A DNA stretch of 64,000 bases from positions 1 through 64,000 of the forward strand of contig NZ_CANLNE010000003.1 of the NCBI RefSeq assembly GCF_947492555.1, in the 5' to 3' direction. This document shows positions 2,810 through 44,753 of the stretch, one piece after another; position 1 is the stretch's first letter; each line of letters starts with the position of its first letter. Below the pieces are notes generated by a model that was given only the letters and a program-made list of their open reading frames with translations, ran no database searches and was not told where the DNA came from. The translations under genes were made by a program, and so were the position numbers. The stretch is from an uncultured Roseobacter sp. Its GTDB lineage: Bacteria; Pseudomonadota; Alphaproteobacteria; Rhodobacterales; Rhodobacteraceae.

Positions 2810-4126
2810 GTGATACCCGAAGACATCCATTGGCACCGTACCGCGCCGCCGCCTCCAACCTGTCACAAAGTGCAAGGTGATCTGACGGCCGATGTGGTGA
2901 TCGTCGGGGCGGGGCTGACCGGCCTGCGTACCGCGATCACGCTGGCGGAGGCAGGCGTGGATACGGTGGTGCTGGATGCGGAGAAGATCGGCTTCGGGTC
3001 TTCCGGGCGCAGCGGCGGGCAGTGCAATCCAATCTGGAGGGCAACGCCGGATGATCTGCGCAAGAAGTTTGGCGCAGCGCAGGCCGAGCGGCTGATCAGG
3101 ACAACGCTGACAGCGGCGGACGACCTTTTTGATGATATCCGGCGTTACAACGTCGATTGTGAAGCGGAGCAGAACGGCTGGATACAAGCGGCCCACACCC
3201 GCAGTGCAGCGGACGACTTGCGGCACCTGCACGCCGCCTGGGCCGAGGTCGGGGCGGATATCCGCGTGATGTCGACAGCCGAGACGCATCAGGCTGTGGG
3301 CTCTGACGCCTATGATTTCGCATTGCACCATGGCAGAGGCGGCTTTGTGCAACCGATGGCGCTGACGCGGGGTTACGCCAAGGCCGCAAAGGCCGCAGGT
3401 GCGCGGCTTTTTGAACAGGCCCCAGCGCAGAAGATCACGCAGCACGGCCAAAAGTGGCAGATCGAGACACCGCAGGGCATTGTGACCGCCGATCAGGTGA
3501 TCCTGACCACCAATGCCTATACCGATGATCTCTGGCCGGGTCTGCGCCAGACGATGCTGCCGATGTATTCGATCTCGCTCGCCACGGCCCCATTAACGCC
3601 AGAGCAGCAGGCCAGTGCTTTGCCGGGGCGTAAGACGATCTCCGACACACGGCTGGCGATCTTTTATGCGCGCTATGATGCAGGCAACCGGCTGATCTTT
3701 GGCTGCGTCGGCAGCAATAACAGCGCGCGCACGCTGGGCGGCGTCGGGCGTCTCTTGAACGGGTTGCATACGGTGTTTCCGCAACTCAAGGGCATTGCCA
3801 TTGAATGCACCTGGGCGGGCCGTATTGGTGTGACGCAGGACATGATGCCCCGCATGCATGAACCCGCCGCCGGTGTGCTGGCAGGTGTGGGGTTCAGCGG
3901 GCGCGGCATTGCCATGACCTCTGTCATGGGCCGCAGTCTCGCGCGCAAGGTTTTGGGCGGGCACAACGATGATTTGCCCTTCCCGGTGTCCATGATCAAA
4001 CCCATTCCGTTTCACGAGGTGTCCCGACGGATGGTGCCCCTGATGGCTCCGTCCATGTCCCTGAAGGACCGCGCCAGTGTGGTCTGGGACCGCATGACCC
4101 CCGCCGCCTCCAAGAAAGAGACCTGA
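2810..4126 (+). CDS. FAD-dependent oxidoreductase (DAO family)
   Basis: A 438-aa flavoprotein of the glycine/D-amino-acid oxidase family, closest in feel to gamma-glutamylputrescine oxidase-like enzymes. The Rossmann FAD fingerprint VVIVGAGLTGLRTA begins near residue 29, an acidic residue follows (VVLDAE), and GFGSSGRSGGQ at about 61-71 is the typical second flavin contact. The C-terminal segment GVLAGVGFSGRGIAMTS closes the FAD site. It starts with GTG; AAGGA lies 7 nt upstream. It is the first gene of a same-strand operon that also holds a cupin, a hydroxylase, a PanB-like protein and a reductase, suggesting oxidation of an amine or amino acid. The substrate is unknown. Confidence 0.85.
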   Translation: MIPEDIHWHRTAPPPPTCHKVQGDLTADVVIVGAGLTGLRTAITLAEAGVDTVVLDAEKIGFGSSGRSGGQCNPIWRATPDDLRKKFGAAQAERLIRTTLTAADDLFDDIRRYNVDCEAEQNGWIQAAHTRSAADDLRHLHAAWAEVGADIRVMSTAETHQAVGSDAYDFALHHGRGGFVQPMALTRGYAKAAKAAGARLFEQAPAQKITQHGQKWQIETPQGIVTADQVILTTNAYTDDLWPGLRQTMLPMYSISLATAPLTPEQQASALPGRKTISDTRLAIFYARYDAGNRLIFGCVGSNNSARTLGGVGRLLNGLHTVFPQLKGIAIECTWAGRIGVTQDMMPRMHEPAAGVLAGVGFSGRGIAMTSVMGRSLARKVLGGHNDDLPFPVSMIKPIPFHEVSRRMVPLMAPSMSLKDRASVVWDRMTPAASKKET

Positions 4127-4127
4127 T

Positions 4128-4475
4128 ATGCAACTCGTCAACTTTGCCGAGCTCGATACGGAGCCTTTCAAAAAGGAGTTCCGGGACGACATCATCGACG
4201 GCACCCCGGAGCAAAACGTCTGGAGCCACTTTGTGGGGGCCAATGGCACCTTCAAATCCGGCATGTGGGACAGCACAGCGGGCGTCTTTCGCGGGCCCAT
4301 GAACGATCAGATCGAGTTCTGTCACATCCTTGAAGGCGAAGCGCGGATCGAGACAGCGGATGGCGCGTCGCGCACCGTCAGAGCGGGTGATGCCTTTGTC
4401 ATGGACAACGGGCTGCAGCCGGTCTGGCACGTCGAGACCTACATCCGCAAACACTACGTCATCGTCTCAGTCTGA
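4128..4475 (+). CDS. Cupin domain protein (DUF861 type)
   Basis: A 115-aa single-domain cupin of the DUF861 / ureidoglycine-aminohydrolase-like group: FCHILEGEARIETADGASRTVRAGDAFVMDNGLQPVWHV. The start lies 1 nt after the stop of the FAD oxidoreductase, indicating tight co-translation. Proteins of this group often accompany amine-oxidising flavoenzymes; the catalytic role, if any, is not known. Confidence 0.82.
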   Translation: MQLVNFAELDTEPFKKEFRDDIIDGTPEQNVWSHFVGANGTFKSGMWDSTAGVFRGPMNDQIEFCHILEGEARIETADGASRTVRAGDAFVMDNGLQPVWHVETYIRKHYVIVSV

Positions 4476-4500
4476 AGCAGCGGCGCGAGGAGAGTTGCAG

Positions 4501-5517
4501 ATGGCCAAGAGCGACACGAACACAGACATTGAGGTGCCCGCAGGCGCAAACCGTGCATGGAATTTTCACCCAAAGCTGCCCATCGCCATGTCGCCGGTCT
4601 TTGACATTCCGCCGCGGCCCAAGGCGGCTCTGACCTGGCTGATCGGAACCTGGTTTAAACTGGCCCCACCGCTGAGCCACATCCTTCTGGCAGTGATTAC
4701 GGTGGCCTTTTTGCTGCCCGCCATGTCGGCGATGCAAACGCTGGACGCGAGCTGGATGCTGCAGATTGCCGCGATCAACTTCGGTTCGGCAATCCTTTTG
4801 GGGACCGCGCTGCATCTCTACCTCTATGTCTTTTCCGGTCAGCAGACGCGGCTGAAATTCGATATACGACCGATGGAGAAATCCAGCCGTTTCACCTTTG
4901 GTTGTCAGGTCTGGGATAACATCTTCTGGAGCCTGGCCTCATCGGTCGTGTTCTGGACGCTCTGGACTCTCCTCTATTTCCACGTGGCCGCGAACGGTTG
5001 GGTGCCGAAGATGCAGAGCATCGGCCAGTCGCCCATATGGTTCGTGCTCTTCTTCTTTATCCTCCGCTTCTGGCAGTCGTTCCATTTCTACTGGATCCAC
5101 CGCCTGATCCACATGCCCTTGCTCTTCAAACACGTGCATTCGCTGCACCACCGGAATGTGAATGTCGGCCCATGGTCCGGCCTGGCCATGCATCCGGTTG
5201 AAGGATTCCTGTATTTCTCGGGCATCCTGATCCACTTTGTGCTGCCCTCGCACCCCATCCATGTGATCTTTCACATGTATTCTCTCAGCCTCGGCGCGCT
5301 CTATTCGCACGCGGGCTTTGACAAGCTGATCTTCCGCGACACCGAAGCGATGAAGGCGGGATCTTTCCACCATCAGCTGCACCACCGATATTTCGAATGC
5401 AACTACGGGTCCGAAGAAATGCCGCTCGACCGCTGGTTCGGCAGTTTCCATGACGGGACGGAAGCTGCCACCAAACGCATCCGCGCGCGCAAGAAGCTTA
5501 TCTTTGCGCCGAAATAG
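4501..5517 (+). CDS. Membrane di-iron hydroxylase (sterol desaturase / fatty acid hydroxylase family)
   Basis: A 338-aa integral membrane protein with about four hydrophobic segments and the complete set of histidine boxes of the family: HFYWIHRLIH, HVHSLHH and HHQLHHRYF. These ligate a di-iron centre that activates O2 for C-H hydroxylation or desaturation. The ATG at 4501 is preferred over the longer open frame because GAGGAGAG lies just upstream and the upstream part overlaps the cupin gene. A PDR-type reductase two genes downstream could supply electrons. The substrate is not deducible; the operon points to catabolism rather than sterol synthesis. Confidence 0.87.
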   Translation: MAKSDTNTDIEVPAGANRAWNFHPKLPIAMSPVFDIPPRPKAALTWLIGTWFKLAPPLSHILLAVITVAFLLPAMSAMQTLDASWMLQIAAINFGSAILLGTALHLYLYVFSGQQTRLKFDIRPMEKSSRFTFGCQVWDNIFWSLASSVVFWTLWTLLYFHVAANGWVPKMQSIGQSPIWFVLFFFILRFWQSFHFYWIHRLIHMPLLFKHVHSLHHRNVNVGPWSGLAMHPVEGFLYFSGILIHFVLPSHPIHVIFHMYSLSLGALYSHAGFDKLIFRDTEAMKAGSFHHQLHHRYFECNYGSEEMPLDRWFGSFHDGTEAATKRIRARKKLIFAPK

Positions 5518-5525
5518 GACGGGAC

Positions 5526-6314
5526 ATGAAACGTATCTACACTTATGGCGGTGCGCCCGCCACGCGGCATCTGACAGTGGGCTGTATCCTCAAGAACAAG
5601 GCAGCGGGCACGCGGATGACGCAGGTGACGGCCTTTGACGCTGAGGAAGCCGCCGCCGCCGCTGAGGCGCAGATCGACACGCTGACCGTGGGGTGTGACA
5701 CGGTTGAGATGATCCGCGCGGCGGCCCCACATATCTTCATCACGGCTGCCCAGGCGATGCGCGAACATGTGACCGAGGATCACGCGCTGGCCGGGGCGAT
5801 TGAGGCGATGGTGAAGGGGGCGGATGCGGTCTACACACCTCGATCTCTGCGCCACATTGAACGCATCGCGCGCGAAGGGATCAGCGTGCAGGGTCATTCC
5901 GGTCTGTTCCCGGCGCGCGCCACTCAGTTTGGCGGCCTTCGGACAGTGGGCAAGACCGCGCAAGAGGCGCTTGATCTGATGCGTTACTTTCGTCAATTGG
6001 AAGATGCAGGCGCTTACGCCGTCGAGGCGGAATGTGTGGCAGAGCAAGCTCTGGCCGAGATCAGCAAGCATTCCAATCTTGTGACCGTGACCATCGGGGG
6101 CGGTTCATCGGGTGACATCATCCTGTCCTACATGTCTGACCTCAGCGGCGACACCGACACCCCACCGCGCCACGCCCGTGCCTTTGGCGACGTGGGTCGC
6201 ATCCGCAAAGAGCTCCGTGCCGAGCGGGCAAAGGCGCTGCAAGGCTACCGCGCGGCAGTCATGGACAGGTCATTCCCCCGACGCCGAAACCACGGTTTTC
6301 ATGGCCGACAATGA
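5526..6314 (+). CDS. PanB-like ketopantoate hydroxymethyltransferase-family protein, 3' frameshift
   Basis: The protein resembles PanB and its ICL/PEP-mutase-fold relatives: VTAFDAEEA near residue 35 (metal-binding Asp), GHSGLFPARATQFGG and GKTAQEALDL in the middle, and EAECVAEQALAEIS followed by a glycine-rich IGGGSSGD segment. It sits in a catabolic operon without panC, so it more likely acts as an aldolase in degradation than in pantothenate synthesis. The natural C-terminus (PDAETTVFMADNELERL...) is found one frame over, up to a stop at 6364-6366. Removing one C from the CCCCC run at 6275-6279 joins the two. As read, the last about 12 residues are out of frame. This may be a sequencing error or a real mutation. 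Confidence 0.78.
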   Translation: MKRIYTYGGAPATRHLTVGCILKNKAAGTRMTQVTAFDAEEAAAAAEAQIDTLTVGCDTVEMIRAAAPHIFITAAQAMREHVTEDHALAGAIEAMVKGADAVYTPRSLRHIERIAREGISVQGHSGLFPARATQFGGLRTVGKTAQEALDLMRYFRQLEDAGAYAVEAECVAEQALAEISKHSNLVTVTIGGGSSGDIILSYMSDLSGDTDTPPRHARAFGDVGRIRKELRAERAKALQGYRAAVMDRSFPRRRNHGFHGRQ

Positions 6315-6372
6315 GCTTGAACGGCTGCGCGAAGGTCTCGACAAGCTGCAACCGGTACACAGGTAGGCCGCG

Positions 6373-7332
6373 ATGGTGCTGATCAACGTTGAGGTCAAGA
6401 AAATCACGCAGGAAGCGGAAGGCATACGGTCCTTTCTGTTGGCCAAAAAAGGGCTCTTCAGACTGCCAGCCTACACGCCCGGTGCGCATATCGATGTGCA
6501 CTGTGGCGAGGGGATCATCCGGCAGTATTCACTCTGCGGCGATCCGACAGATCGGCGACATCTGTTGATCGCAGTGCGGCAGGTTGATCCGTCGCGAGGT
6601 GGGTCCGAACTGATGCACCGCGTCGTGCAGGAGGGCGATCGGCTTGAGATCGGCGCGCCGCGCAACACCTTTCCGCTGGATGAGACGGCCGCGCACAGTG
6701 TGCTGCTGGCCGCTGGCATCGGGATCACGCCCATCATTGCCATGGCCGACCGGCTGCATGCTTTGGGCCGATCATTCGAATTGCATTATTTCTCGCGTGC
6801 GCCCGAGCACACCGCATTTCGCGCCCGTCTGACGCAAGGCTCATTTGTGGGTAAGGTCACGCTCTACGAAGGGCTTGATGGGGCGGCAACAGGTCGGGCC
6901 CTTGAGGATATTTTGGCGCGGCCCGTCGCAGGCGGCAAAGTCTACATGTGTGGCCCCGGCCCCTTCATGGACCGCGCTGTGGCTGCCGCGCAGGTGCGCT
7001 GGCCACAAGACGCAATCAACCTCGAACGCTTCGCCGCCAAACCTGCCCTAGCGGGCGCGCCCACAAAGCCGTTCGATGTCGAGTTGGCGCGCACAGGGGT
7101 TACACTAAACGTCTGCGCAGAAGAAACCATCCTCGACGTGCTCGAAACCAACGAGATCGACGCGGCCTTCTCATGTGAACAGGGGGTCTGCGGCACCTGC
7201 GTCACGGATGTTCTGAGCGGCACGCCTGAACACCGCGACAGTTTCCTTTCCGCAGGTCAGCGGACCTCCGGGAACGTAATGTGCATTTGCGTGTCCCGGG
7301 CGGTAGGCGAAAAACTGGTGCTTGACCTCTAA
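6373..7332 (+). CDS. PDR/VanB-type FMN and 2Fe-2S oxidoreductase
   Basis: A 319-aa electron-transfer protein with the domain order of phthalate dioxygenase reductases: FMN-binding barrel (RQYSLCGDPTD near residue 53), NAD-binding domain (LLAAGIGITPIIAMADRL near 112 and YMCGPGPFMD near 195), and C-terminal plant-type 2Fe-2S ferredoxin with C268, C273, C276 and C304 in CEQGVCGTC...C. It would pass electrons from NADH to an oxygenase. The only oxygenase in the operon is the membrane di-iron hydroxylase, so the pair may be partners, which would be unusual because PDR proteins normally serve Rieske oxygenases. Confidence 0.9.
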   Translation: MVLINVEVKKITQEAEGIRSFLLAKKGLFRLPAYTPGAHIDVHCGEGIIRQYSLCGDPTDRRHLLIAVRQVDPSRGGSELMHRVVQEGDRLEIGAPRNTFPLDETAAHSVLLAAGIGITPIIAMADRLHALGRSFELHYFSRAPEHTAFRARLTQGSFVGKVTLYEGLDGAATGRALEDILARPVAGGKVYMCGPGPFMDRAVAAAQVRWPQDAINLERFAAKPALAGAPTKPFDVELARTGVTLNVCAEETILDVLETNEIDAAFSCEQGVCGTCVTDVLSGTPEHRDSFLSAGQRTSGNVMCICVSRAVGEKLVLDL

Positions 7333-19239: not shown

Positions 19240-19270
19240 TTAACTATATTTATTTGTACGTATGTATAAT
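19240..19270 (+). promoter_or_regulatory. Candidate promoter of the molybdenum hydroxylase operon
   Basis: A perfect TATAAT occurs at 19265-19270 in an AT-rich patch, with a poor -35 candidate TTAACT at 19240-19245 (19-bp spacer), 53 bp before the first start codon. It overlaps the small palindrome TACGTA. Prediction by eye only. Confidence 0.3.
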
Positions 19271-19322: not shown

Positions 19323-20243
19323 GTGAACGCGGAATTCACGATTGAATGTCTATTGAACTGCGAAAATCATCTGGGTGAAGGCCCGGTTTGGGATGTTCAA
19401 TCAGGGCTGCTCTATTGGGTGGACAGCACCGGCCCACGGGTCGGCAAGGACGCGATCTGGCGGCTGAATCCGGAGACGGGTGCGGTAAAAACTTGGACTC
19501 TAGACCAAGACGTGGGCGCAATGGCGCTGCGCAAAGATGGCGGTGCAGTGCTGGCGCTGAGCGATGGGTTTTACACCTTTGATTTCGACAGCGGCAAAAC
19601 CGAGTTGATCGCGGCGGTGGACGATGATCCATCCCGCGCGCGGCTTAACGACGGCAAATGTGATCGCCACGGGCGTTTCTTTGCAGGCGGGATGGACGAC
19701 AAAGAAGAGCTGGGCATTTGTGGGTTGTGGCGGCTGGACCCGGACCTGAGCCTGCGTAAAATCGAAGACGGGATCATCTGTTCCAACGGTCCGTGCTGGA
19801 GCCCCGACGACGCGACATTCTACTTCGCTGATACTTTCAAGAACGAGATTTGGGCCTATGACTACGATCTGGCCAGCGGAACACCCACCAACAAGCGGGT
19901 GTTCGCCTCGACCAAAAAAGACACGGGATTTGCAGATGGATCGACGGTGGATGCTGAAGGTTATCTGTGGAACGCGCAGGTCATTTCGGGCGATTTGATC
20001 CGTTACGCGCCCGACGGCAGCGTGAACCGCAAAATCTCGATGCCGGTGCGCAACATCACCTCCGTGATGTTCGGCGGTCCTGAACTGGAGGACATCTACG
20101 TCACGTCGATGGCGCGGGTGTCGCATCCCGCCACACATGACGGTTTTGAAAAACAGACAAAACCACAATTCGCCGCCGGCGGCCTGTTTCGCATTCGCGG
20201 ACTGGGCATTCGCGGTGTGCCCGAGCCGCGTTTCGCGGGCTGA
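19323..20243 (+). CDS. SMP-30/gluconolactonase family protein
   Basis: A 306-aa six-bladed propeller of the SMP-30/regucalcin family, usually sugar or other lactonases with a bound divalent metal. Visible motifs are HLGEGPVWD (metal-binding Glu, near residue 18), RLNDGKCDRHGRFFAG near 102, and TGFADGSTVDAEGYLW near 201 with the metal-binding Asp. The start is GTG 19323 with CAAGGA upstream; an ATG two bases earlier is closed at once by TGA. First gene of an eight-gene operon with a molybdenum hydroxylase, so it may open a lactone made by that enzyme. Confidence 0.85.
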   Translation: MNAEFTIECLLNCENHLGEGPVWDVQSGLLYWVDSTGPRVGKDAIWRLNPETGAVKTWTLDQDVGAMALRKDGGAVLALSDGFYTFDFDSGKTELIAAVDDDPSRARLNDGKCDRHGRFFAGGMDDKEELGICGLWRLDPDLSLRKIEDGIICSNGPCWSPDDATFYFADTFKNEIWAYDYDLASGTPTNKRVFASTKKDTGFADGSTVDAEGYLWNAQVISGDLIRYAPDGSVNRKISMPVRNITSVMFGGPELEDIYVTSMARVSHPATHDGFEKQTKPQFAAGGLFRIRGLGIRGVPEPRFAG

Positions 20244-20265
20244 GGGCATCAAGGGAGGACACCAT

Positions 20266-21114
20266 ATGAAACCATCTGCATTCCGCTACGAACGACCCAC
20301 TGATTTGCAAGCCGCCCTTGCGCTTTTGGCGACGGGCGGGGACGCACGTATCCTTGCGGGCGGCCAAAGCCTTGTTCCCATGATGAACTACCGTTTGGCG
20401 CAGCCTGCGTGCCTGATCGACATCAACCGGGTGTCGGATCTTGACTACATCCGCGAGGACGGCGACGTGATTGCCATTGGTGCGCTGGCGCGCCACGGGG
20501 CGATCAAATCCTCGGATCTGATCAAGGCCCATCTGCCCATCGTTGCCGAAGCCTATGACTGGATTGCACATGCCGCCGTGCGCAACCGGGGCACGCTGTG
20601 TGGCAACTTGTGTCATGCGGATGCGGCGTCCGAGATGCCAGCGATCATGCAAATACTGGAGGCGGAGTTGGTGCTGGCCAAGGTGGGGACCACACGGACG
20701 GTCGCGGCCACAGAGTTTTTCGTCGGAACCTATGAGACCGCGATTGCCGAGGATGAGATGCTGACCGAGGTGCGCATTCGCAAACCCGCTGCCGGGACCG
20801 GTTGGGGGTTTGAGGAAGTGGCGATGCGGCGCGGCGATTACGCGTGGTGCACGGTCGTGGCGACGCTTGAGATCAGCGACGGCAATATCGTCGCACCGCG
20901 CATTGCCATAGCGGGGGTCAACGATTGTGCCGCGCGTTTGGGGACTGTGGAGGGCGCCCTGACCGGCAAGAAACCCGACGCGTCTCTGTTCGCGGACGTC
21001 GCGGCGACTGCGGCCGAGGCGGCAACGCCGACCGAAAACGCGGCCTACAAACGCGACCTCATCCGGGCGTTGTTGCCACGGGTGCTCAACGATGCGGTGG
21101 AACGCGCGGGATAA
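20266..21114 (+). CDS. Molybdenum hydroxylase, FAD-binding subunit (CoxM/XdhB-like)
   Basis: A 282-aa medium subunit with the family FAD loops AGGQSLVPMMNYRLAQP (residues 32-48) and HAAVRNRGTLCGNLCHADAASEMP (residues 102-125). It carries electrons from the iron-sulfur subunit to the acceptor. ATG 20266 has GGGAGGA upstream and lies 22 nt after the SMP-30 gene. It forms an M-S-L gene order with the next two genes, the order of CO-dehydrogenase-like enzymes. Confidence 0.9.
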   Translation: MKPSAFRYERPTDLQAALALLATGGDARILAGGQSLVPMMNYRLAQPACLIDINRVSDLDYIREDGDVIAIGALARHGAIKSSDLIKAHLPIVAEAYDWIAHAAVRNRGTLCGNLCHADAASEMPAIMQILEAELVLAKVGTTRTVAATEFFVGTYETAIAEDEMLTEVRIRKPAAGTGWGFEEVAMRRGDYAWCTVVATLEISDGNIVAPRIAIAGVNDCAARLGTVEGALTGKKPDASLFADVAATAAEAATPTENAAYKRDLIRALLPRVLNDAVERAG

Positions 21115-21146
21115 CGCGCAACCCCAACCACAGATGGAGGAAAAAC

Positions 21147-21650
21147 ATGACCAAGGTATCTTTTCAACTGACCGTCAACGGGCGCGTGCGGGAGGCGAGC
21201 GTGCCGCCGCGGATGCTTTTGTCGGATTTCATCCGTCACGAACTCGCCATGCCCGGCACGCATGTAGGATGTGAGCACGGGGTCTGTGGATCTTGCAACG
21301 TGATGTTGGACGGCAAGGCCGTGCGGTCATGTCTGATGTTTGCGATTCAGGCCGAGGGGTCAGAGATCACCACGGTTGAGGGCCTGGCAACGGGCGATGA
21401 TTTGCATCCGATCCAACAGGCATTCTGGGAAGAGCACGGGCTGCAATGCGGCTTTTGCACGCCGGGCATGCTGGCCACGGCGCAGGAATTGCTTGCCGAG
21501 AACTCCGATCCCACGGACGACGAAATTCGCGAGGCGATTTCGGGGAACTTGTGTCGCTGTACCGGATACGAATTCGTCATCAGCGCCATTCGCTCCGCCT
21601 CCGTCAAGCTGCGCGCGGCTCAGGCCGAAACCACGCTTCAGCCCGTCTGA
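21147..21650 (+). CDS. Molybdenum hydroxylase, 2Fe-2S subunit (CoxS-like)
   Basis: A 167-aa protein with a plant-type 2Fe-2S domain ([15 protein letters not shown], residues 41-55) and a second helical 2Fe-2S domain (CGFCTPGML and [10 protein letters not shown]). Both clusters have their full cysteine sets. ATG 21147 has TGGAGGA upstream; the earlier open frame overlaps the previous gene. It relays electrons from the molybdenum site to FAD. Confidence 0.92.
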
Positions 21651-21668
21651 CCCAGAAGGGAATCTCCC

Positions 21669-24149
21669 ATGTCCAACCATCTCAAAAGCAACGTCATCCC
21701 TCCCAGCCGTCAGCGCGAGGCGCCACGTGCCGGGATGACCTGGATCGGCCAGAGCATGAAGCGCGTCGAAGACCCGCGCATCCTGTCCGGCAAGGGTGGC
21801 TATATCGACGATATCGCGGTGCCCGGTATGGCCCACGCCGCGATGGTATCAAGCCCCCATGCCCACGCGCGCATCGTCAGCATCGATACTTCCAAGGCCG
21901 AGAAGCTGCCCGGTGTGATTGGCGTCTACACAGGCGAAGACATGGCGCGCGTCGTGGACCCGTGTCCGAGCTTTGCGTCCCCTCCGATCACGCAGAACGC
22001 GATGTCCGTGGGCAAGGTACGCCATGTCGGCGAAGTCGTCGCCGCGGTCGTGGCAGAGGATCGCTATGTCGCCGAAGACGCCGCCGAACTGGTCGAGATG
22101 GAGTGGGACATCCTGCCTGCCTGCGTTGATCTGGAAGCCTCTGCCGCCGCAACCGGGGAGGCCGTGCTGCACCCCGATGACCGGGACGGCAATGTCGCAC
22201 TGGATGAGAGTTTCAGCTTTGGCGATGTGGATGAGCATTTCGATGAAGCGCATACCATCGTGAAACGCCGACTGCGCTGGCGGCGGTCCTCGGCTCAAGC
22301 GATTGAAACCTGCGGTGTCGTCGCCCAGTTCGATCCGTTCAAGGGTGGCTACACGATCCATTCCAATTCAAACTTTTACAACTTTATCCCCTTCGTCATC
22401 GGTGGATCGCTGCGCGTCTCGCCCGGCGAATTGCGGATCATTCCCGTGCTGACAGGGGGCAGCTTTGGCTCCAAGGTGTTCAGCCACAAAATCATCATTC
22501 TGACGGCGGGCCTTGCCCGGCTGGCGGGCGTACCGGTCAAGTACATCGAAGACAGGCTGGAGCATTTCACCAACTCCGACAGCCACGGGTCGGACCGCCT
22601 TTATGATGCCGAGTTGGCAGTGACCGAGGATGGCACCTTTACCTCCCTGCGGTTCACGGTGATGGATGACTACGGCGCCTATTTGCAATTCGGGGTCGGC
22701 ACCCATGGCAACGCCATGGCGCAGGTCACCGGACCCTACCAAATCCAGAGCTTTGGCATGCGGGTGATGGCGGTGCTGACAAACAAGACGCAACAGGGCC
22801 CTTATCGGGGATTTGGCTCTGAAGTCACCAATTGGGTGATGGAGCGCATGGTGGACGCCGCCGCCGAGGAATTGGGCCGCGACCCGGTTGAATTGCGCGT
22901 GCAGAACATGATCCAGCCGGATCAGTTCCCTTACATGATCCCGACGGGAAACATCTATGACAGCGGCAACTTCCAAAAAGTTCTGTCCGAGGCACAAACG
23001 ATGTTTGATTTCGACGGCTGGCGCGACAAGGCGCGTGCGATGCGCGCCGAGGGGCGCTGTGTCGGGGTTGGCCTTGCCACCTGCATGGAACGCAGCGTCT
23101 ACGGCCCAACCGAATGGTGGTCGCTCAACAACAAGGAGACGCCCGGTTTCACGCTGACCTCGACACCCGAAGGGATCACCGTACGGCTTGATCCGTCGGG
23201 CAAGATGTTTGTGACGCTGAACTCTCCCATGGTGGGCAATTCGCCCGAAACGGTGGTGGCGCAAATCCTTGCGGAGCGCCTGACCATCGCGCCCGAAGAC
23301 ATCGTGTTCAACTATTCCGACAGCCAGTCCGGTTTCAACGGGGTGGGGCCCCAAGGTAGCCGCTTCACGGCGATGATCGCGGGGGCCTGCGTCAGCGCGT
23401 CGATCAAGCTTGAGGAAAAGCTGAAGCGCTTTGGCGCGCATATGCTGCAACGCCGCCCCGAGGATGTGGAGTTGCGCAATGGGACGGTCGCTGTCAAAGG
23501 TCTGAAAGATCAGGAAAAACCCTTTGGTGAGATCGCGCTGACGTCCAGCTTCTTCCGGTTGAGCTTCCCTGATGGCGAGGAATTCGACAGCGGGATCGAG
23601 ACAACGGCGGTCTACGATCACCCGCTGTCGACGGACCCGGCGGAAGATCGCAGCCATCTGGGGATTTTCTATCCCATCGTTGGCCATATCTGCCACATCG
23701 TGGCGGTCGAGGTTGATGCCGGCACGGGCAAAGTCGAAATCCTCGACTATGCTGCTGTGCATGACAACGGCACCATGGTGAACCCCCGCACGCTGGCGGG
23801 GCAGGTCTGGGGTGGGACGGCCAATGGCATTGGCACGACACTCAGCGAGGTGTTCAACTACGATGATGAGGGACAATTTACGAACCCCAACTTCGCCGAG
23901 TTCGCCATGCCCACAGCCAATGAAATGCCCCGCAATTTCAAGCTCGGCCATGTCGAAACCCCATCGCCCTTTACGGAATACGGGATCAAGGGTGGCGGCG
24001 AAGGGGGCAGACTTGGCGCGCCCTCCGCGTTGACCAGCGCGATCGAGGATGCATTGTCGGATCGTGGCGTTAAGATAACATCACTGCCTGTGACGCCACC
24101 GATCCTGCGTGGATTGATCCGTACGGCAGAACAGACGGCGGCAGAGTAG
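21669..24149 (+). CDS. Molybdenum hydroxylase, molybdopterin-binding subunit (CoxL-like, form II type)
   Basis: An 826-aa large subunit of the xanthine oxidase/CO dehydrogenase family. The active-site loop reads GPYRGFGSE, not the AYxCSFR loop of true CO dehydrogenase, so CO oxidation is unlikely; it should hydroxylate an aldehyde or heterocycle. GGSFGSK and the C-terminal GIKGGGEGG with its catalytic Glu are present. It follows the 2Fe-2S gene by 18 nt. The substrate is unknown; the downstream BKACE, thioesterase and TPP enzyme suggest a multi-step degradation. Length is normal for the family. Confidence 0.92.
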   Translation: MSNHLKSNVIPPSRQREAPRAGMTWIGQSMKRVEDPRILSGKGGYIDDIAVPGMAHAAMVSSPHAHARIVSIDTSKAEKLPGVIGVYTGEDMARVVDPCPSFASPPITQNAMSVGKVRHVGEVVAAVVAEDRYVAEDAAELVEMEWDILPACVDLEASAAATGEAVLHPDDRDGNVALDESFSFGDVDEHFDEAHTIVKRRLRWRRSSAQAIETCGVVAQFDPFKGGYTIHSNSNFYNFIPFVIGGSLRVSPGELRIIPVLTGGSFGSKVFSHKIIILTAGLARLAGVPVKYIEDRLEHFTNSDSHGSDRLYDAELAVTEDGTFTSLRFTVMDDYGAYLQFGVGTHGNAMAQVTGPYQIQSFGMRVMAVLTNKTQQGPYRGFGSEVTNWVMERMVDAAAEELGRDPVELRVQNMIQPDQFPYMIPTGNIYDSGNFQKVLSEAQTMFDFDGWRDKARAMRAEGRCVGVGLATCMERSVYGPTEWWSLNNKETPGFTLTSTPEGITVRLDPSGKMFVTLNSPMVGNSPETVVAQILAERLTIAPEDIVFNYSDSQSGFNGVGPQGSRFTAMIAGACVSASIKLEEKLKRFGAHMLQRRPEDVELRNGTVAVKGLKDQEKPFGEIALTSSFFRLSFPDGEEFDSGIETTAVYDHPLSTDPAEDRSHLGIFYPIVGHICHIVAVEVDAGTGKVEILDYAAVHDNGTMVNPRTLAGQVWGGTANGIGTTLSEVFNYDDEGQFTNPNFAEFAMPTANEMPRNFKLGHVETPSPFTEYGIKGGGEGGRLGAPSALTSAIEDALSDRGVKITSLPVTPPILRGLIRTAEQTAAE

Positions 24150-24157
24150 GAGCAAAA

Positions 24158-25084
24158 GTGTCGAAACGTCGTCCCGTCATTATCACCTGCGCGATCACCG
24201 GGGCTATTCACACGCCCTCGATGTCGCCGCATTTGCCCGCAACATCTGAGGCTATTGTCGCCTCGGCTGTGGCGGCTGCGCATGCGGGCGCGGCGATCCT
24301 GCATCTGCACGCGCGCAATGACGAGACCGGGCAGCCGGATCAAAGCGTCAAAGGCTTTGGCCGGATCGTGCCCCAGATCGCGGCACGCACAGATGCCGTG
24401 TTGAACCTGACCACGGGCGGTAGTCCCTACATGACCGTTGAAGAACGCGTGCGCCCGGCGGCGGAATTTGCACCGGAACTCGCCTCGCTCAACATGGGGT
24501 CGATGAATATGGGGCTGTTCCCGATGCAACAGCGCTTTCCCCAGTTGCCAGAGTGGGAACACGCCCATCTTGAAGGCTCAAAAGACCTGGTTTTCCGCAA
24601 CAGCTACAAAGACATAGACTACGTTCTGGATACCTGCCGCAGCAACGGCACGCGGTTTGAGTTTGAGTGTTATGACACCGCGCATCTCTACAATCTCGCG
24701 CATTTTGCGGACAAGGGCGCGGTTGAGCCGCCGTTTTTCGTGCAAACGGTGTTTGGATTGCTGGGCGGAATAGGCGCGCATCCCGATGACGTTGCGCATA
24801 TGCGCCGCACCGCGTTGCGGTTGTTTGGCGGTGACATGGTGTGGTCCGCGCTTGGCGCGGGCGCGCACCAGATGCGGGTCGCCGCCACTGTTGTTGCGGG
24901 GGGCGGTCATGTACGTGTGGGCCTTGAGGATTCACTCTGGGCCGGACCGGGCGAGCTGTCCGTGTCCAACGCCGATCAGGTGCAGGCGGCCAAAACCCTG
25001 ATCGAAACGCTGGGCTGCCGAGTGGCCACACCAGATGAGGCGCGCAGGCTTTTGCAATTGGACCTCAAGCAGAAGGCGGTGTGA
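24158..25084 (+). CDS. BKACE family beta-keto acid cleavage enzyme (DUF849)
   Basis: A 308-aa enzyme of the beta-keto acid cleavage family, which converts a beta-keto acid plus acetyl-CoA into acetoacetate and a new CoA ester using a divalent metal. ITCAITGAIHTPSMSP, LHLHARN (metal-binding His pair) and LNLTTGGS are typical, as is the late AAGH-like stretch VGLEDSLWAGPGELS. The start is GTG with TAGGAG upstream. The CoA ester formed could be hydrolysed by the thioesterase three genes on, as in carnitine degradation. The side-chain specificity cannot be read reliably. Confidence 0.9.
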   Translation: MSKRRPVIITCAITGAIHTPSMSPHLPATSEAIVASAVAAAHAGAAILHLHARNDETGQPDQSVKGFGRIVPQIAARTDAVLNLTTGGSPYMTVEERVRPAAEFAPELASLNMGSMNMGLFPMQQRFPQLPEWEHAHLEGSKDLVFRNSYKDIDYVLDTCRSNGTRFEFECYDTAHLYNLAHFADKGAVEPPFFVQTVFGLLGGIGAHPDDVAHMRRTALRLFGGDMVWSALGAGAHQMRVAATVVAGGGHVRVGLEDSLWAGPGELSVSNADQVQAAKTLIETLGCRVATPDEARRLLQLDLKQKAV

Positions 25085-25086
25085 CG

Positions 25087-25791
25087 ATGCGACAGCAATT
25101 ACGCAGTCTGACCCTGATCCAGGGCTCAGATATCAACCGCAAACCCGGACGCCCCAAAGGCGGCAAGTCAGAGCAGACCCGCGAGCGCATTCTTGACGCC
25201 GCAGAACAACTGTTTGCCGACCGGGGCTATGACGGTGCCTCAATCCGCGACGTGGCGGCGGCGGCGGGGCTGCAAATCCATTCCATCAGCTATCACTTCG
25301 GTCCTAAAGAACAGCTTTTTGATGCGGTGGTCGCGCGGCGTGCCGATATTATGACCGGGCTGCGCGGCGCGGCGCTGGAAACGGCGCGCCAGCAGGCAGG
25401 CGCGGCGGCGATCCCGATCAAGCAGCTGGTGCGGGACTACGCCAGCCCCTTCATTCAATCCGCCAGCCATGGCGATGTGGGTTGGCGAAACTACGCGGCC
25501 CTTATGGGACGGCTTGCCAATTCCCCTTTGGGCACGGAGATCATCGCGCGCCACTACGATGACATGGCACGCGAATACATCACTGAGTTGCAAAGGGCCC
25601 TGGCGGGGGCGGACCCGGAAGACGTGGTCGAAGGGTTCTCGGCCATGGTCGCCGCGATGCTTGGGATTTGTGCGGCTACGGGGCGTCCCGAACGGTTGTC
25701 AGGGCGCAACGCGCAACGCCCGCCCGAGGAGAGCTTTGAGGCGCTGGTGCGCTTTCACACCGCAGGATTTCTCGCGCTGACAATCGCTTAA
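25087..25791 (+). CDS. TetR family transcriptional regulator
   Basis: A 234-aa regulator with an N-terminal TetR helix-turn-helix (RERILDAAEQLFADRGYDG, SIRDVAAAAGLQIHSISYHFG) and a ligand-binding C-terminal domain. A GTG at 25081 overlapping the BKACE stop could also be the start; ATG 25087 is preferred. It lies inside the operon, so it is probably co-expressed with the genes it controls. Confidence 0.88.
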   Translation: MRQQLRSLTLIQGSDINRKPGRPKGGKSEQTRERILDAAEQLFADRGYDGASIRDVAAAAGLQIHSISYHFGPKEQLFDAVVARRADIMTGLRGAALETARQQAGAAAIPIKQLVRDYASPFIQSASHGDVGWRNYAALMGRLANSPLGTEIIARHYDDMAREYITELQRALAGADPEDVVEGFSAMVAAMLGICAATGRPERLSGRNAQRPPEESFEALVRFHTAGFLALTIA

Positions 25792-25808
25792 GCGGAAAGG
25801 ATGGCTAC

Positions 25809-26210
25809 ATGGGACAGACGCTGGAAAGCGGCGCAACATACGCATTGCGCGCAAAAGTCGATGATACACGCACTGCCGCATCATTGGCAGATATCGGTGA
25901 GGTTCTGCCGCCCGTGTTTGGAACACCGTTCATGATCGCCGATATGGAACGCGCTTGCGCGGCGTTACTGACGCCGCTCCTGCCAGAAGGTTGGGTTTCT
26001 GTCGGCGCAAAGATTGAAGTGTCCCATCTTGCGCCAACACCCGTGGGGGGCGAGGTCACAGCCACCGCGCAGTTCACGGCACAAGAGGGTCCGCTCTATT
26101 GGTTCGATGTCTGGGCAGAGGACGCAAGCGGACGCATCGGCAAGGGGCGCATTGCGCGCGCGATCGTGGATCAGAAGGCGCTCTTGGACAAAGCCGAGGG
26201 GCGCGCATGA
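25809..26210 (+). CDS. Thioesterase, FlK-like hot-dog fold
   Basis: A 133-aa protein resembling fluoroacetyl-CoA thioesterase FlK and relatives. The segment VFGTPFMIADMERACAALL carries the Thr and Glu, and VSHLAPTPVGGEVTATA the His, of the FlK-type catalytic triad. It would hydrolyse a short CoA ester. It sits between the TetR and TPP-enzyme genes and overlaps the latter by ATGA. Its pairing with a BKACE enzyme suggests that the ester made by cleavage is its substrate. Confidence 0.82.
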   Translation: MGQTLESGATYALRAKVDDTRTAASLADIGEVLPPVFGTPFMIADMERACAALLTPLLPEGWVSVGAKIEVSHLAPTPVGGEVTATAQFTAQEGPLYWFDVWAEDASGRIGKGRIARAIVDQKALLDKAEGRA

Positions 26211-28600
26211 CCGATCTCAAGATGCTGAAAGAACTCGAGAAAAAAGTGCTCTGGCTGGCGTGCTGGACGATCCATAACGCCAATCACCTGCGCGAAAGCG
26301 ATGAGATCAAGGTCGGTGGGCATCAGGCCTCCTCGGCCTCCATGGTGTCGATCATGACCGCGCTCTATTTCTCTGTTTTACGCCCCGAAGACCGTATCGC
26401 GGTCAAACCTCACGCCGGGCCGGTTTTCCACGCGATCCAGTATTTGATGGGCAACCAGACCCGCGAGAAGCTGGAGAATTTTCGCGGGTATGGCGGCGTG
26501 CAAAGCTATCCAAGCCGGACCAAGGACATCGATGATGTGGATTTCTCCACTGGCTCGGTTGGTCTTGGCGTGGCGATCACTGCTTTTGCCGCGATGGTGC
26601 AGGATTTTCTGATCGCCAAGGAATGGTCAGGTGTGGAGACACCGGGGCGCATGATATCCCTTATGGGGGATGCCGAACTGGATGAGGGAAATATCTACGA
26701 GTGCCTCCAAGAGGGCTGGAAGCATGGGCTACGCAATACATGGTGGATCATTGATTACAACCGGCAGAGCCTTGATGGCATCGTGCACGAAGGTCTCAAG
26801 GACCGGATCGTGGGCATATTCGAGGCGTTCGGTTGGCGGGTTGAGATGCTCAAGCACGGTGCGCTGCAGCGTGCGGCCTTCGCTGAGCCGGGGGGTGACG
26901 CATTGCGGGTCTGGATCGACACCTGCCCGAACTCGATCTACTCCGCGTTGACCTATCAGGGGGGTGGCGCGTGGCGCGCGCGGCTGCTCGATGAGATTGG
27001 CGATCAGGGCGACGTGACCGCGTTGATTGAACGCCGCAGCGACGATGAGCTTGCCAACCTGATGACCAATCTGGGCGGGCATTGTCTTGAAACCCTGACA
27101 ACGGCATTCAACGGAGTTGCGGACGACACGCCCACCGCCTTCATTGCCTACACCGTAAAAGGCTGGGGAACACCGTTGGCCGGGCACAAAGACAACCACG
27201 CGGGCCTGATGACCAAGGACCAGATGGCGGCCTTTCAGAAGAAAATGCGCGTGCGCAACGGGTATGAGTGGGACCCGTTTGAGGGAATGGCAGACACGCC
27301 CGAAACGCTCAAGGAAGCCTTCGCACGCATCCCCTTCTTTGCCAAAGGGCCACGGCGCGCGTCCTCGGCCCATGTTGACGTGCCAAAGCTTCCGCCGGTG
27401 GGCGACAAGGCGATCTCGACGCAGGCGGCGTTTGGCAAGATCCTTGACGCATTGGCGAAGGGAGACACGGGCCTCGCGCAGCGCATTGTTACCATGTCGC
27501 CTGATGTCACAGTCTCGACCAACCTTGGCCCTTGGGTGAACCGGCGCGGTTTGTTTGGCCGCGCCGAAGTGGCTGATACCTTCCGTGCAGAACAGATCCC
27601 AAGCACGCAGAAATGGCGGTTCTCTCCGCAAGGTCAGCACATCGAGCTGGGCATCGCGGAGATGAATCTGTGCCTTTTGCTGGGTGCCGCAGGGCTGAGC
27701 CATTCGCTGTTTGGCGAGCGGCTTTTGCCGATTGGCACGCTTTACGATCCGTTTGTCAGTCGCGCGCTCGATGCGCTGAACTATGCCTGCTATCAGGACG
27801 CGCGTTTTTTGCTGGTAGGAACGCCTTCGGGGGTCAGTCTTGCCTCCGAAGGGGGCGCGCATCAGTCCATTGCGTCGCCTCTGATCGGGATGAGCCAGGA
27901 CGGGCTGGCAAGCTTTGAGCCTGCGTTTGCCGATGAACTTGCGGTCATGATGGAGTGGGCATTTGATTACATACAGCGCGACGGTGACGCTGTACAGGAT
28001 GAGCGTACGTGGCTGCGCGATGAAACGGGTGGGGCGGTCTATCTGCGCTTGTCCACCCGCCCGCTGGAACAGCCGGGGCGCGCGCTTGACCCGGAGTTGC
28101 GGCAAGGCATCGTTGATGGGGCCTATTGGCTTCGCCCACCGGGTCCGAATTGTGATCTGGTGATCGCGTATCAGGGCACCATCGCAACCGAAGCGATTGT
28201 CGCCGCTGGCCTATTGGCCAGCACCCGGCGCGACATTGGGGTGCTCGCCGTGACTTCGGCGGATCGGCTGAACGCGGGATGGCAGGCGGCACAGCGGGTG
28301 CGATCGCGCGGGGATGCTGGTGCCAAGGCATATGTCGAGCGGCTGCTTGGTGACGTGCCGCGCCATGCCATTATCGTGACAGTGATTGACGGACACCCTG
28401 CAACGCTCAGCTGGCTGGGTGGTGTTGCAGGGCACCAGACAGCGGGTCTTGGCGTTGAGCATTTTGGTCAAACCGGAACGGTACAGGACCTCTACCGGCA
28501 TTTTGGCATCGACGCAGAGGCCATCGCCCGCACCGCCAGCGGCCTGTCACCGGGGCGTCCGTTTGGGCTACCCGAACTCAAACTCGACGCTGCCTCTTAG
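26207..28600 (+). CDS. TPP-dependent E1/transketolase-like enzyme
   Basis: A 797-aa single-chain TPP enzyme resembling homodimeric pyruvate dehydrogenase E1 and transketolase. The TPP/Mg loop is GDAELDEGNIYE, followed about 30 residues later by DYNRQSLDG. The pyrimidine-binding domain has HIELGIAEMN with the activating Glu, and a C-terminal transketolase domain follows. It is shorter than AceE (about 885 aa), and no E2 or E3 gene is near, so it may act alone in 2-oxo-acid cleavage or carboligation. ATG 26207 overlaps the thioesterase stop. Last gene of the operon. Confidence 0.82.
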   Translation: MTDLKMLKELEKKVLWLACWTIHNANHLRESDEIKVGGHQASSASMVSIMTALYFSVLRPEDRIAVKPHAGPVFHAIQYLMGNQTREKLENFRGYGGVQSYPSRTKDIDDVDFSTGSVGLGVAITAFAAMVQDFLIAKEWSGVETPGRMISLMGDAELDEGNIYECLQEGWKHGLRNTWWIIDYNRQSLDGIVHEGLKDRIVGIFEAFGWRVEMLKHGALQRAAFAEPGGDALRVWIDTCPNSIYSALTYQGGGAWRARLLDEIGDQGDVTALIERRSDDELANLMTNLGGHCLETLTTAFNGVADDTPTAFIAYTVKGWGTPLAGHKDNHAGLMTKDQMAAFQKKMRVRNGYEWDPFEGMADTPETLKEAFARIPFFAKGPRRASSAHVDVPKLPPVGDKAISTQAAFGKILDALAKGDTGLAQRIVTMSPDVTVSTNLGPWVNRRGLFGRAEVADTFRAEQIPSTQKWRFSPQGQHIELGIAEMNLCLLLGAAGLSHSLFGERLLPIGTLYDPFVSRALDALNYACYQDARFLLVGTPSGVSLASEGGAHQSIASPLIGMSQDGLASFEPAFADELAVMMEWAFDYIQRDGDAVQDERTWLRDETGGAVYLRLSTRPLEQPGRALDPELRQGIVDGAYWLRPPGPNCDLVIAYQGTIATEAIVAAGLLASTRRDIGVLAVTSADRLNAGWQAAQRVRSRGDAGAKAYVERLLGDVPRHAIIVTVIDGHPATLSWLGGVAGHQTAGLGVEHFGQTGTVQDLYRHFGIDAEAIARTASGLSPGRPFGLPELKLDAAS

Positions 28601-29131: not shown

Positions 29132-29205
29132 GCGGGCGTTGTGTAGTGGTAAGACCTTAGCCTTCCAAGCTAATGACGCGGGTTCGATTCCCGCCGCCCG
29201 CTCCA
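29132..29205 (+). tRNA. tRNA-Gly (anticodon TCC)
   Basis: A 74-nt cloverleaf with encoded CCA. The acceptor stem GCGGGCG pairs with CGCCCGC, the anticodon loop is CTTCCAA with TCC, and the T arm GCGGG-TTCGATT-CCCGC is perfect. Discriminator base is T. Confidence 0.96.
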
Positions 29206-43652: not shown

Positions 43653-44753
43653 TCATGATTTCCGCGCGATCACCAGATCCATCACATTGGTGCCCGTGGG
43701 CCCGGTTTTCAGCAAAGCGCCGCGCGCTTGCAACCATGCACCAGCATCCGCGCGATCCAGCGCCTCCTGCCCGGAGGCCTCCCAGGTTGCACCGTCGATG
43801 ATGGCCCCAGCCGCATCCGTGGGCCCATCCGTGCCATCTGTGCCCGCTACCAGGATTTGCAGACCGCTGACGCCCGCAATTTCCCGCGCCAGCAGGAGGG
43901 CCAGCGCCTGGTTGCGCCCGCCCTGACCGGGGTCGGGGGGCAGAACGACCGTGGGTTCACCGCCAAAAAGGTGTATCCCCGGTTCCGCGTCTTTCAGAGC
44001 GGCGGCAATCCGCCGCGCAACTACGTTCACGTCAGCATAGAGCGTTTCTTCATCGTGCCCCACGGCCAGCCCCGCATCGCTGGCCGTCTGGCGCACAGCG
44101 GCGCGGGCGATGGCATTGCTCGCCACGATGCGCGCCTCAAAGGTAAACGCAGACTCGACGGGGGCTGCGCCGATGCCGGAGCCGATCACCTGCAGGCTGT
44201 CGCCCTCCACGTCGGAAATCGCCAGTGTGGTCACACGTGCACCGCCGAATGCGCCCAGCAGTTTACCACCCTTGACCCGGCTGGTTTTTGTCCGCGCCGC
44301 GTTCATCGCGTGGATATCAGCGCCCGAGGCCAGCATCTGCTGCGCGCGGCTTTTCAGATCATCCAGGCTCAACCCACCCGCCGGAGCTTCAGCCAGCGCG
44401 GAGGCCCCGCCTGAGACCAGCAGCATCAGGTGGCTGCCTGCAGCCATATTCTGCACGGCCTCCAGGACCCGCGTGCCTGCGCTGATGCTGTTTTCATCAA
44501 GCACGGGATGCGCTGCTTCGATAACCTCCGCCGCCGCGGGGGCACCGTCTGCATGGTGGTACTTCGTCACGATCAACAGGGGCGTTTCAGGAAAGAGCAC
44601 ATGCGCGGCACGAGCCATTGCGGTCGCGGCCTTGCCCACGGCGATGATCCTATCCGGTGCCGCAACAGGCTTTGTCGCAAGGCTGGCCGTGACGGAGTTG
44701 TCACCGCGCACGGCAGCCACCCCGGCATCAAAGAGCGTTCGAAGGTCAGTCAT
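43653..44753 (-). CDS. Glycerate 2-kinase (MOFRL family)
   Basis: A 366-aa protein of the GckA/TtuD group that phosphorylates D-glycerate to 2-phosphoglycerate (older annotations call it hydroxypyruvate reductase). Motifs are [31 protein letters not shown] and the C-terminal MOFRL block [20 protein letters not shown]. It overlaps dtd by ATGA and closes the long minus-strand operon. It may serve one-carbon or glycolate metabolism. Confidence 0.88.

Follow-up and report, generated by a model that had tools for sequence, protein, structure and literature searches.

The window analysed here, the first 64,000 nucleotides of contig NZ_CANLNE010000003.1 of an uncultured Roseobacter sp. (GCF_947492555.1), carries eight consecutive genes for an SMP-30-type lactonase, a three-subunit molybdenum dehydrogenase, a BKACE enzyme, a TetR-family regulator, a FlK-like thioesterase and a thiamine pyrophosphate (TPP) enzyme, which form a real, conserved and probably co-regulated set (Table 1). 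We tentatively interpret this operon as a catabolic cassette, linked to a TetR regulator and sporadic in its distribution, that serves a route of the 2-deoxyaldose type. The complete six-step scheme is offered as a possibility; its second, third, fifth and sixth steps together make up the better-supported part, in which we place moderate confidence. The observed basis of the pathway consists of gene content, an upstream palindrome, co-inheritance and intact active-site positions; a deoxysugar-type oxidative route appears the most likely, with the substrate and the reaction of the TPP enzyme being predictions.

An earlier note on this DNA had proposed an eight-gene unit at 19323..28600, and this holds: eight forward-strand open reading frames follow one another, neighbours overlapping by as much as 4 nt or standing up to 32 nt apart, and profile searches (Pfam and NCBIfam) gave all eight a Pfam-backed name. 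Co-transcription is only presumed, because predicted promoters and terminators in the operon were no commoner than in shuffled sequences, with none found before the first gene either. The GC content of the operon is ordinary for the window.

Table 1. Genes of the operon and the putative operator ahead of it, in window coordinates
Feature	Position	Strand	Basis
Palindromic operator TTGTACGTATGTATAA, putative TetR site	19254-19269		conserved upstream palindrome
SMP-30/SGL (SMP-30/regucalcin-type lactonase, GTG start)	19323-20243	+	PF08450, 272.7 bits
FAD subunit of molybdenum dehydrogenase	20266-21114	+	PF00941, PF03450
[2Fe-2S] subunit of molybdenum dehydrogenase	21147-21650	+	PF01799, PF00111
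Molybdenum (large) subunit, xanthine oxidase/CODH superfamily	21669-24149	+	PF01315, PF02738, PF20256
BKACE	24158-25084	+	PF05853, 338.2 bits; NF053538, 462.8 bits
TetR-family regulator	25081-25791	+	PF00440, PF17939
FlK-like hotdog thioesterase	25809-26210	+	PF22636, 105.9 bits
Homodimeric-E1/transketolase-like TPP enzyme, read as E2-free	26207-28600	+	PF00456, PF17831, PF22613

Scanning a genome collection with the molybdenum subunit returned 13 loci, from which one was excluded (L085, with the molybdenum subunit at 58% and a contig that starts just ahead of the FAD gene) and to which the window was added, giving 13 cassettes. The lactonase, the three molybdenum-enzyme subunits and a TetR homologue are present in all of them, BKACE in 11, the FlK-like thioesterase in eight and the TPP enzyme in eight (an AceE-like protein at L084 was not scored as such), while six cassettes (the window, L074, L075, L077, L078, and L083) hold all eight genes. 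The idea that these genes constitute one catabolic set is borne out by these complete copies, and the search for the same set in other genomes, suggested in the earlier note, showed that homologues co-occur outside the strain in 12 further cassettes. The record titles of the carriers name Roseobacter, Tateyamaria, Ahrensia, Limibaculum, Labrenzia, and one metagenome-assembled genome (MAG) of the Comamonadaceae. The spread is patchy: matches of at least 83% identity occur in two of 295 genomes of the family (the window's own counted), the sole same-genus genome drawn holds a distant paralogue only, and at E 1e-180 the class-wide search gave four of 385 genomes, namely its own and three at 53–59%. 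At L079 the TetR gene lies upstream of the cassette. As a separate observation, L080, L081, L082, L083, and L086 have a gene of the glyoxalase superfamily (VOC) after those of the cassette; the L080 protein is longer and differs by eye from the other four.

For each of the 28 pairs among the eight genes, the distances are correlated (r 0.68–0.97; permutation p no higher than 0.027), in keeping with a set that was inherited or transferred jointly. Of 24 dN/dS comparisons, the 21 that were computable gave ratios of 0.03–0.16; the ratios were 0.03–0.09 for all eight genes when compared with L075, values that are rough since dS (0.9–2.2) is near saturation, and the catalytic positions of the lactonase, BKACE and the FlK-like thioesterase are invariant among the cassettes. 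Together with the six complete sets, these comparisons indicate an adjacency beyond chance. Gene borders at loci lacking annotation were obtained with our own codon-usage caller and are approximate, and the first-gene starts used for dN/dS and for operator distances were chosen by hand.

The clearest common feature ahead of the lactonase gene, judged by eye, is a palindrome, found as exact TTRTACNNNNGTAYAA in 11 of the 13 cassettes at 36–58 bp upstream of the first-gene start codon; L080 has it with one mismatch, and in L084 none is recognisable. When whole genomes were scanned, a single palindrome was present in 11 of the 13, always at the cassette site. A reversed control pattern occurred 0–2 times in each genome, with 14 occurrences across all 13, and it is therefore the position of the palindrome, not its rarity, that carries the argument; for a narrower pattern, 0.02 matches would be expected in the window. 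In the window the palindrome runs into TATAAT, and the consensus scan gave no promoter there. The simple reading is that the TetR protein encoded inside the operon would regulate its own expression via this site.

In the proposed scheme, the TPP enzyme would act without an E2 partner and decarboxylate a 2-keto acid that has hydroxyls further along the chain (e.g., a 2-keto-3-deoxy sugar acid), yielding a 2-deoxyaldose-like hydroxyaldehyde (step 1), the hemiacetal carbon of which would be oxidised by the molybdenum dehydrogenase to give a lactone (step 2). The SMP-30 protein would open this lactone to a 3-hydroxy acid (step 3), and a dehydrogenase encoded elsewhere would convert it to the 3-keto acid (step 4). 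BKACE would then move the acetyl end onto acetyl-CoA, forming acetoacetate together with a 2-hydroxyacyl-CoA, for instance glyceryl-CoA or glycolyl-CoA (step 5), and the FlK-like thioesterase would hydrolyse this alpha-substituted acyl-CoA (step 6). Step 1 is the weakest. Decarboxylation of a 2-keto-3-deoxy acid would give a hydroxyaldehyde suited to the molybdenum dehydrogenase and the lactonase, and the C4 hydroxyl of the keto acid would end up, after decarboxylation, at the C3 position that BKACE needs.

We favour a deoxyribose-type reading because the oxidative deoxyribose/deoxyribonate pathway (Price et al. 2019, PMC6365646) has the same order of enzymes, from molybdenum dehydrogenase, lactonase and 3-dehydrogenase to BKACE and glyceryl-CoA. 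According to the available part of that paper, the molybdenum dehydrogenase oxidises deoxyribose, the lactone is opened, the acid is oxidised by a short-chain dehydrogenase/reductase (SDR), and BKACE cleavage is proposed to give glyceryl-CoA and acetoacetate, after which an acyl-CoA hydrolase is needed. The same part identifies no glyceryl-CoA hydrolase and mentions no TPP enzyme, whereas the window has both a thioesterase and a TPP enzyme; PMC9007349, in the text available, likewise lists the hydrolase of this pathway as not yet identified. Conversely, the P. simiae clusters described there (PMC6365646) include the SDR dehydrogenase and transporters, which are absent from the window operon. 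For step 1, the accessible text of PMC4680960 describes an engineered route in which a TPP-dependent 2-keto acid decarboxylase converts 3-deoxy-pentulosonate to 3,4-dihydroxybutanal.

Candidates for the 3-dehydrogenase come from related loci. Among 15 loci with a BKACE of 62–70% identity (L106–L120, the best-ranked of 50 listed matches after the window, the 84% paralogue and G631), an SDR gene lies within 2 kb in nine and a 3-hydroxyacyl-CoA-dehydrogenase-like gene in five; one of the nine SDRs, that of L107, shares just 32% identity with the L115 SDR and is encoded on the other strand. At L106, another molybdenum enzyme, alcohol dehydrogenase domains that fall into two reading frames, a lactonase (69%) and BKACE (70%) stand in a row. 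The L115 locus has in addition a dehydratase of the GarD/UxaA type, as well as a MOFRL protein, which we take to belong to a glycerate kinase family, and at L099 a GarD-like gene, cut by the end of the stretch, lies by BKACE with a molybdenum enzyme 6 kb on; both contexts point to sugar-acid chemistry. Ahead of the L079 cassette there is a dehydrogenase scoring over the cut-off of NF004783 (3-hydroxyacyl-CoA-dehydrogenase-like), and the P. bryophila cluster in the available part of PMC6365646 likewise has a gene of this kind. The L079 dehydrogenase, together with a fused E1 described below, precedes the operator and may belong to a separate transcript.

The lactonase, whose best solved relatives are regucalcins, retains in all 13 cassettes the equivalents of E18, R101, N103, N154, and D204, presumably the metal and substrate residues, and SMP-30 proteins with such residues act on lactones. 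Within the molybdenum dehydrogenase, eight cysteines of the [2Fe-2S] subunit and Glu778 of the molybdenum subunit, which we assume to be the active-site glutamate, are likewise kept in 13 of 13, and the best NCBIfam match of the FAD subunit is glyceraldehyde dehydrogenase beta (227.7 bits, under the cut-off of 350). The enzyme had been described as a form II molybdenum hydroxylase; its three-subunit nature stands, and the term 'form II' is loose, because the loop of the molybdenum subunit reads GPYRGFGSE in all 13 cassettes and not AYRGAGR, the motif of form II carbon monoxide dehydrogenase (CODH), and because the scores fall below both CODH model cut-offs (509.7 vs 950; 420 vs 991). By these sequence features the subunit does not qualify as a strict form II CODH.

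The best solved relatives of the molybdenum subunit are quinoline 2-oxidoreductase, CODH, and 6-hydroxypseudooxynicotine dehydrogenase, in keeping with a rather unlikely alternative that starts with hydroxylation of an N- or O-heterocycle by this enzyme and goes on through the opening of a ring lactone to beta-keto acid cleavage. A PF04199 cyclase, which would suit ring opening, is paired with a molybdenum enzyme and BKACE in L098 and L099 (from the same list of BKACE matches, treated apart from the 15), and a Rieske-type oxygenase adjoins the L079 cassette. As far as the available texts go, the PF04199 family includes a ring-opening cyclohydrolase (PMC10470551), and PMC11961710 describes the context of BKACE15 as suggestive of aromatic degradation. 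Against this, no ring-cleavage oxygenase, amidohydrolase or monooxygenase was seen inside the 13 cassettes, the variable flanks being mostly judged by eye, and both the lactone-type residues of the SMP-30 protein and the sugar-acid contexts of L099 and L115 fit poorly with such a substrate. The earlier proposal that a heterocycle or an aldehyde is hydroxylated first survives in part: the heterocycle keeps a minor chance, and a sugar-like aldehyde is the better match for the lactonase, for certain related clusters and for the deoxyribose precedent. In a separate genome, L094 (G289 contig 59) has three tandem three-subunit molybdenum enzymes, two of them 57–58% identical to the operon's molybdenum subunit, and the 20-kb stretch analysed showed neither a lactonase nor a BKACE.

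The window BKACE exceeds the curated cut-offs of both of its models (24.8 for PF05853 and 430 for NF053538) and, with the lactonase match, upholds the earlier view of a pathway with lactone opening and acetyl-CoA-dependent cleavage of a beta-keto acid. Its nearest solved relative with measured activity is BKACE15 of Paracoccus denitrificans (PDB 8RIO, 8RIP, 9HNF; 406.8 bits), and the uncharacterised 3e49 is closer (428 bits). In the comparison of active sites that had been called for, all 11 cassette BKACEs retain the equivalent of E171 and the putative metal ligands, and the presumed column of Kce Glu14 holds Ile in all 11. E171 is the catalytic glutamate of BKACE15, an enzyme for which the available part of PMC11961710 establishes no physiological role. 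The NCBIfam subgroup name, 3,5-dioxohexanoate:acetyl-CoA acetone transferase, carries a score above its cut-off and would suit a triacetate-type route, in which BKACE cleaves 3,5-dioxohexanoate or a like diketo acid derived from a phenolic or polyketide ring, and 3,5-dioxohexanoate is among the substrates on which BKACE15 was tested (PMC11961710, available part). We regard this route as improbable. The same text reports that BKACE15 also used beta-ketohexanoate, beta-ketopentanoate, and 5-hydroxy-beta-ketohexanoate, so that the name is non-specific. According to the available part of PMC10470551, CsTAL carries Trp where Kce has Glu14, in contrast to the Ile of the cassettes, and cleavage of triacetate yields acetoacetyl-CoA; such a product would suit a thiolase and not a hydrolase. 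The anaerobic phloroglucinol cluster of Clostridium scatologenes covered there pairs BKACE with a 3-hydroxyacyl-CoA-dehydrogenase-like partner, and the part available mentions no molybdenum enzyme, lactonase or TPP enzyme. The Roseobacter genome holds seven BKACE matches; a second copy (L101; G000 contig 2, 194728-195627) is 84% identical to that of the operon and has no recognisable pathway neighbours within 12 kb.

The thioesterase gene, second after BKACE, is the genome's only PF22636 match. Compared with the fluoroacetyl-CoA thioesterase FlK, which we take to be from Streptomyces cattleya, the equivalents of T42, E50, G69, H76, and R120 are kept in eight of eight cassette thioesterases, and these include the catalytic set of FlK (T42, E50, H76). 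The position of Phe36, the FlK lid for fluorine selectivity, is Leu in all eight. Fluoroacetate detoxification was set aside given this replacement and the lack of any hint from the other seven genes, none of the eight being fluorine-related. BKACE plus a thioesterase is also the activity pair of carnitine degradation, and the carnitine route had been weighed and dismissed in the earlier note. We reject a carnitine or betaine variant as well and consider it very improbable: the genome has its own carnitine cluster elsewhere (L102), in which a carnitine 3-dehydrogenase/4HBT thioesterase fusion (NF005716, 793 bits vs a cut-off of 592) accompanies a BKACE only 32% identical to that of the window, which weakens even the analogy; the operon has no carnitine dehydrogenase, and its lactonase and molybdenum enzyme are foreign to the carnitine route.

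The TPP enzyme scores well below the cut-offs of the AceE model (163.1 vs 859.9 bits) and of TIGR03186 (146.5 vs 1408.3 bits), a model which we take to be labelled MdeB. Alignment blocks with AceE and transketolase show that the TPP/Mg motif, the activating Glu and three His columns are retained, their roles being presumed. The alignment to E. coli AceE begins at about residue 73, and the first ~72 AceE residues, belonging to the N-terminal region that is used for E2 binding, are absent; the column of His407, the lipoyl-loop His of AceE, is not occupied by His and has Gly or Ala around it, and a His lies two columns off. Two E2 genes were found in the genome, each beside its own E1 genes in the 2-oxoglutarate and pyruvate complexes, in agreement with the earlier remark that the enzyme has no E2/E3 partners alongside. 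Because these N-terminal residues are missing and both E2 genes sit in ordinary complexes, we read the TPP enzyme as E2-free. An AlphaFold model, with eight close sequences, had a mean pLDDT of 37.6 and a pTM of 0.34.

Of 385 class genomes, 132, its own included, hold relatives of the TPP enzyme at 52% identity or above (137 with matches less five with AceE-like matches only), named examples being those of Ruegeria pomeroyi and Sulfitobacter faviae, and a narrow search of the open literature found no function for the family. An Lrp gene was detected in 27 of 41 TPP loci, methionine gamma-lyase in 11 and either of them in 32, using tblastn over the available flanks (mostly 1.5 kb; ~11 kb or more for plasmid or fetched loci); these loci omit E. 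coli AceE and L084 and are partly non-independent, L110 equalling the Cereibacter plasmid locus L039 in its TPP enzyme and L025–L027 being near-copies. This neighbourhood favours a 2-oxo acid substrate and leads to a doubtful, though appreciable, alternative: the lactone, BKACE and thioesterase steps would be the same, and the TPP enzyme would act downstream or beside them on a small 2-oxo acid (e.g., 2-oxobutyrate), either in an oxidative reaction that uses a housekeeping E2 or by carboligation. The L076 and L081 genomes, where the cassette lacks the TPP gene and a 69–70% copy lies elsewhere (that of L081 with an internal TGA), also speak for it, as do L082 and L086, where the TPP gene follows TetR and the thioesterase is missing. 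The lack of the AceE-type N-terminal region and the placement of both E2 genes speak against it, as does the close agreement of TPP-enzyme distances with those of the molybdenum subunit (r = 0.96, n = 8). In the TPP tree, operon members fall into two clades (the window, L074, L075, L077, and L078; L082, L083, and L086), with which a single origin could still be reconciled. Other types of TPP protein, a fused E1 alpha/beta directly before the L079 cassette and a TIGR03186-type protein 3.9 kb after that of L084 on the other strand, hint that TPP chemistry is part of the route.

Several observations weigh against the 2-deoxyaldose-type scheme. BKACE is missing from two of the 13 cassettes and the TPP enzyme and the thioesterase from five each, and no BKACE match turned up at E 1e-80 in the L079 genome, which is a MAG. 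Neither a 3-dehydrogenase nor a transporter was found among the eight genes with Pfam, and the whole-genome palindrome scan gave no second operator pointing to regulon members. The best solved-structure scores of the molybdenum subunit are to a heterocycle hydroxylase and CODH, and the E2-free reading is partly alignment-dependent, with a His two columns from the AceE loop His. The company of Lrp and methionine gamma-lyase suggests 2-oxobutyrate-like substrates, not sugar acids. The only MOFRL match of the genome (PF13660, PF05161; window 43653-44753, −), the MOFRL type being the one glycerate kinase family searched, lies 15 kb from the operon on the other strand. Finally, compared by description, the molybdenum enzyme in the available part of PMC6365646 is IorAB-like with cytochrome c, whereas that of the window has three subunits.

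Elsewhere in the window, the MOFRL gene adjoins a peptidase gene and apparent peptide-transport genes and is a possible glycerate sink, unclustered with the operon. A tRNA-Gly (TCC) gene (29132-29205, +), ~530 bp past the operon, may be an integration landmark. An odd cluster at 2870-7332 (+) encodes an FAD oxidoreductase, an EutQ-like cupin, a fatty acid hydroxylase, a ketopantoate hydroxymethyltransferase homologue and a Fer2-domain protein with a weak DmmA-like match. For homarine as a substrate, no matching operon was found in literature listings.

A natural route in which 2-keto-3-deoxy sugar acids are decarboxylated by a new class of E2-free E1-like TPP enzymes, and the resulting 2-deoxyaldoses consumed through a three-subunit molybdenum dehydrogenase, a lactonase, BKACE and a FlK-like hydrolase of glyceryl-CoA or glycolyl-CoA, is, on present evidence, unlikely. 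If true, the TPP class, which roughly one in three of the sampled alphaproteobacterial genomes encodes and which is without a part common to AceE-type E1 enzymes, would be a large uncharacterised decarboxylase family. The FlK-like gene is a candidate for the missing glyceryl-CoA hydrolase noted in the available part of PMC9007349, and the palindrome before the first gene could serve as a reporter to find the inducer and hence the substrate of the cassette.

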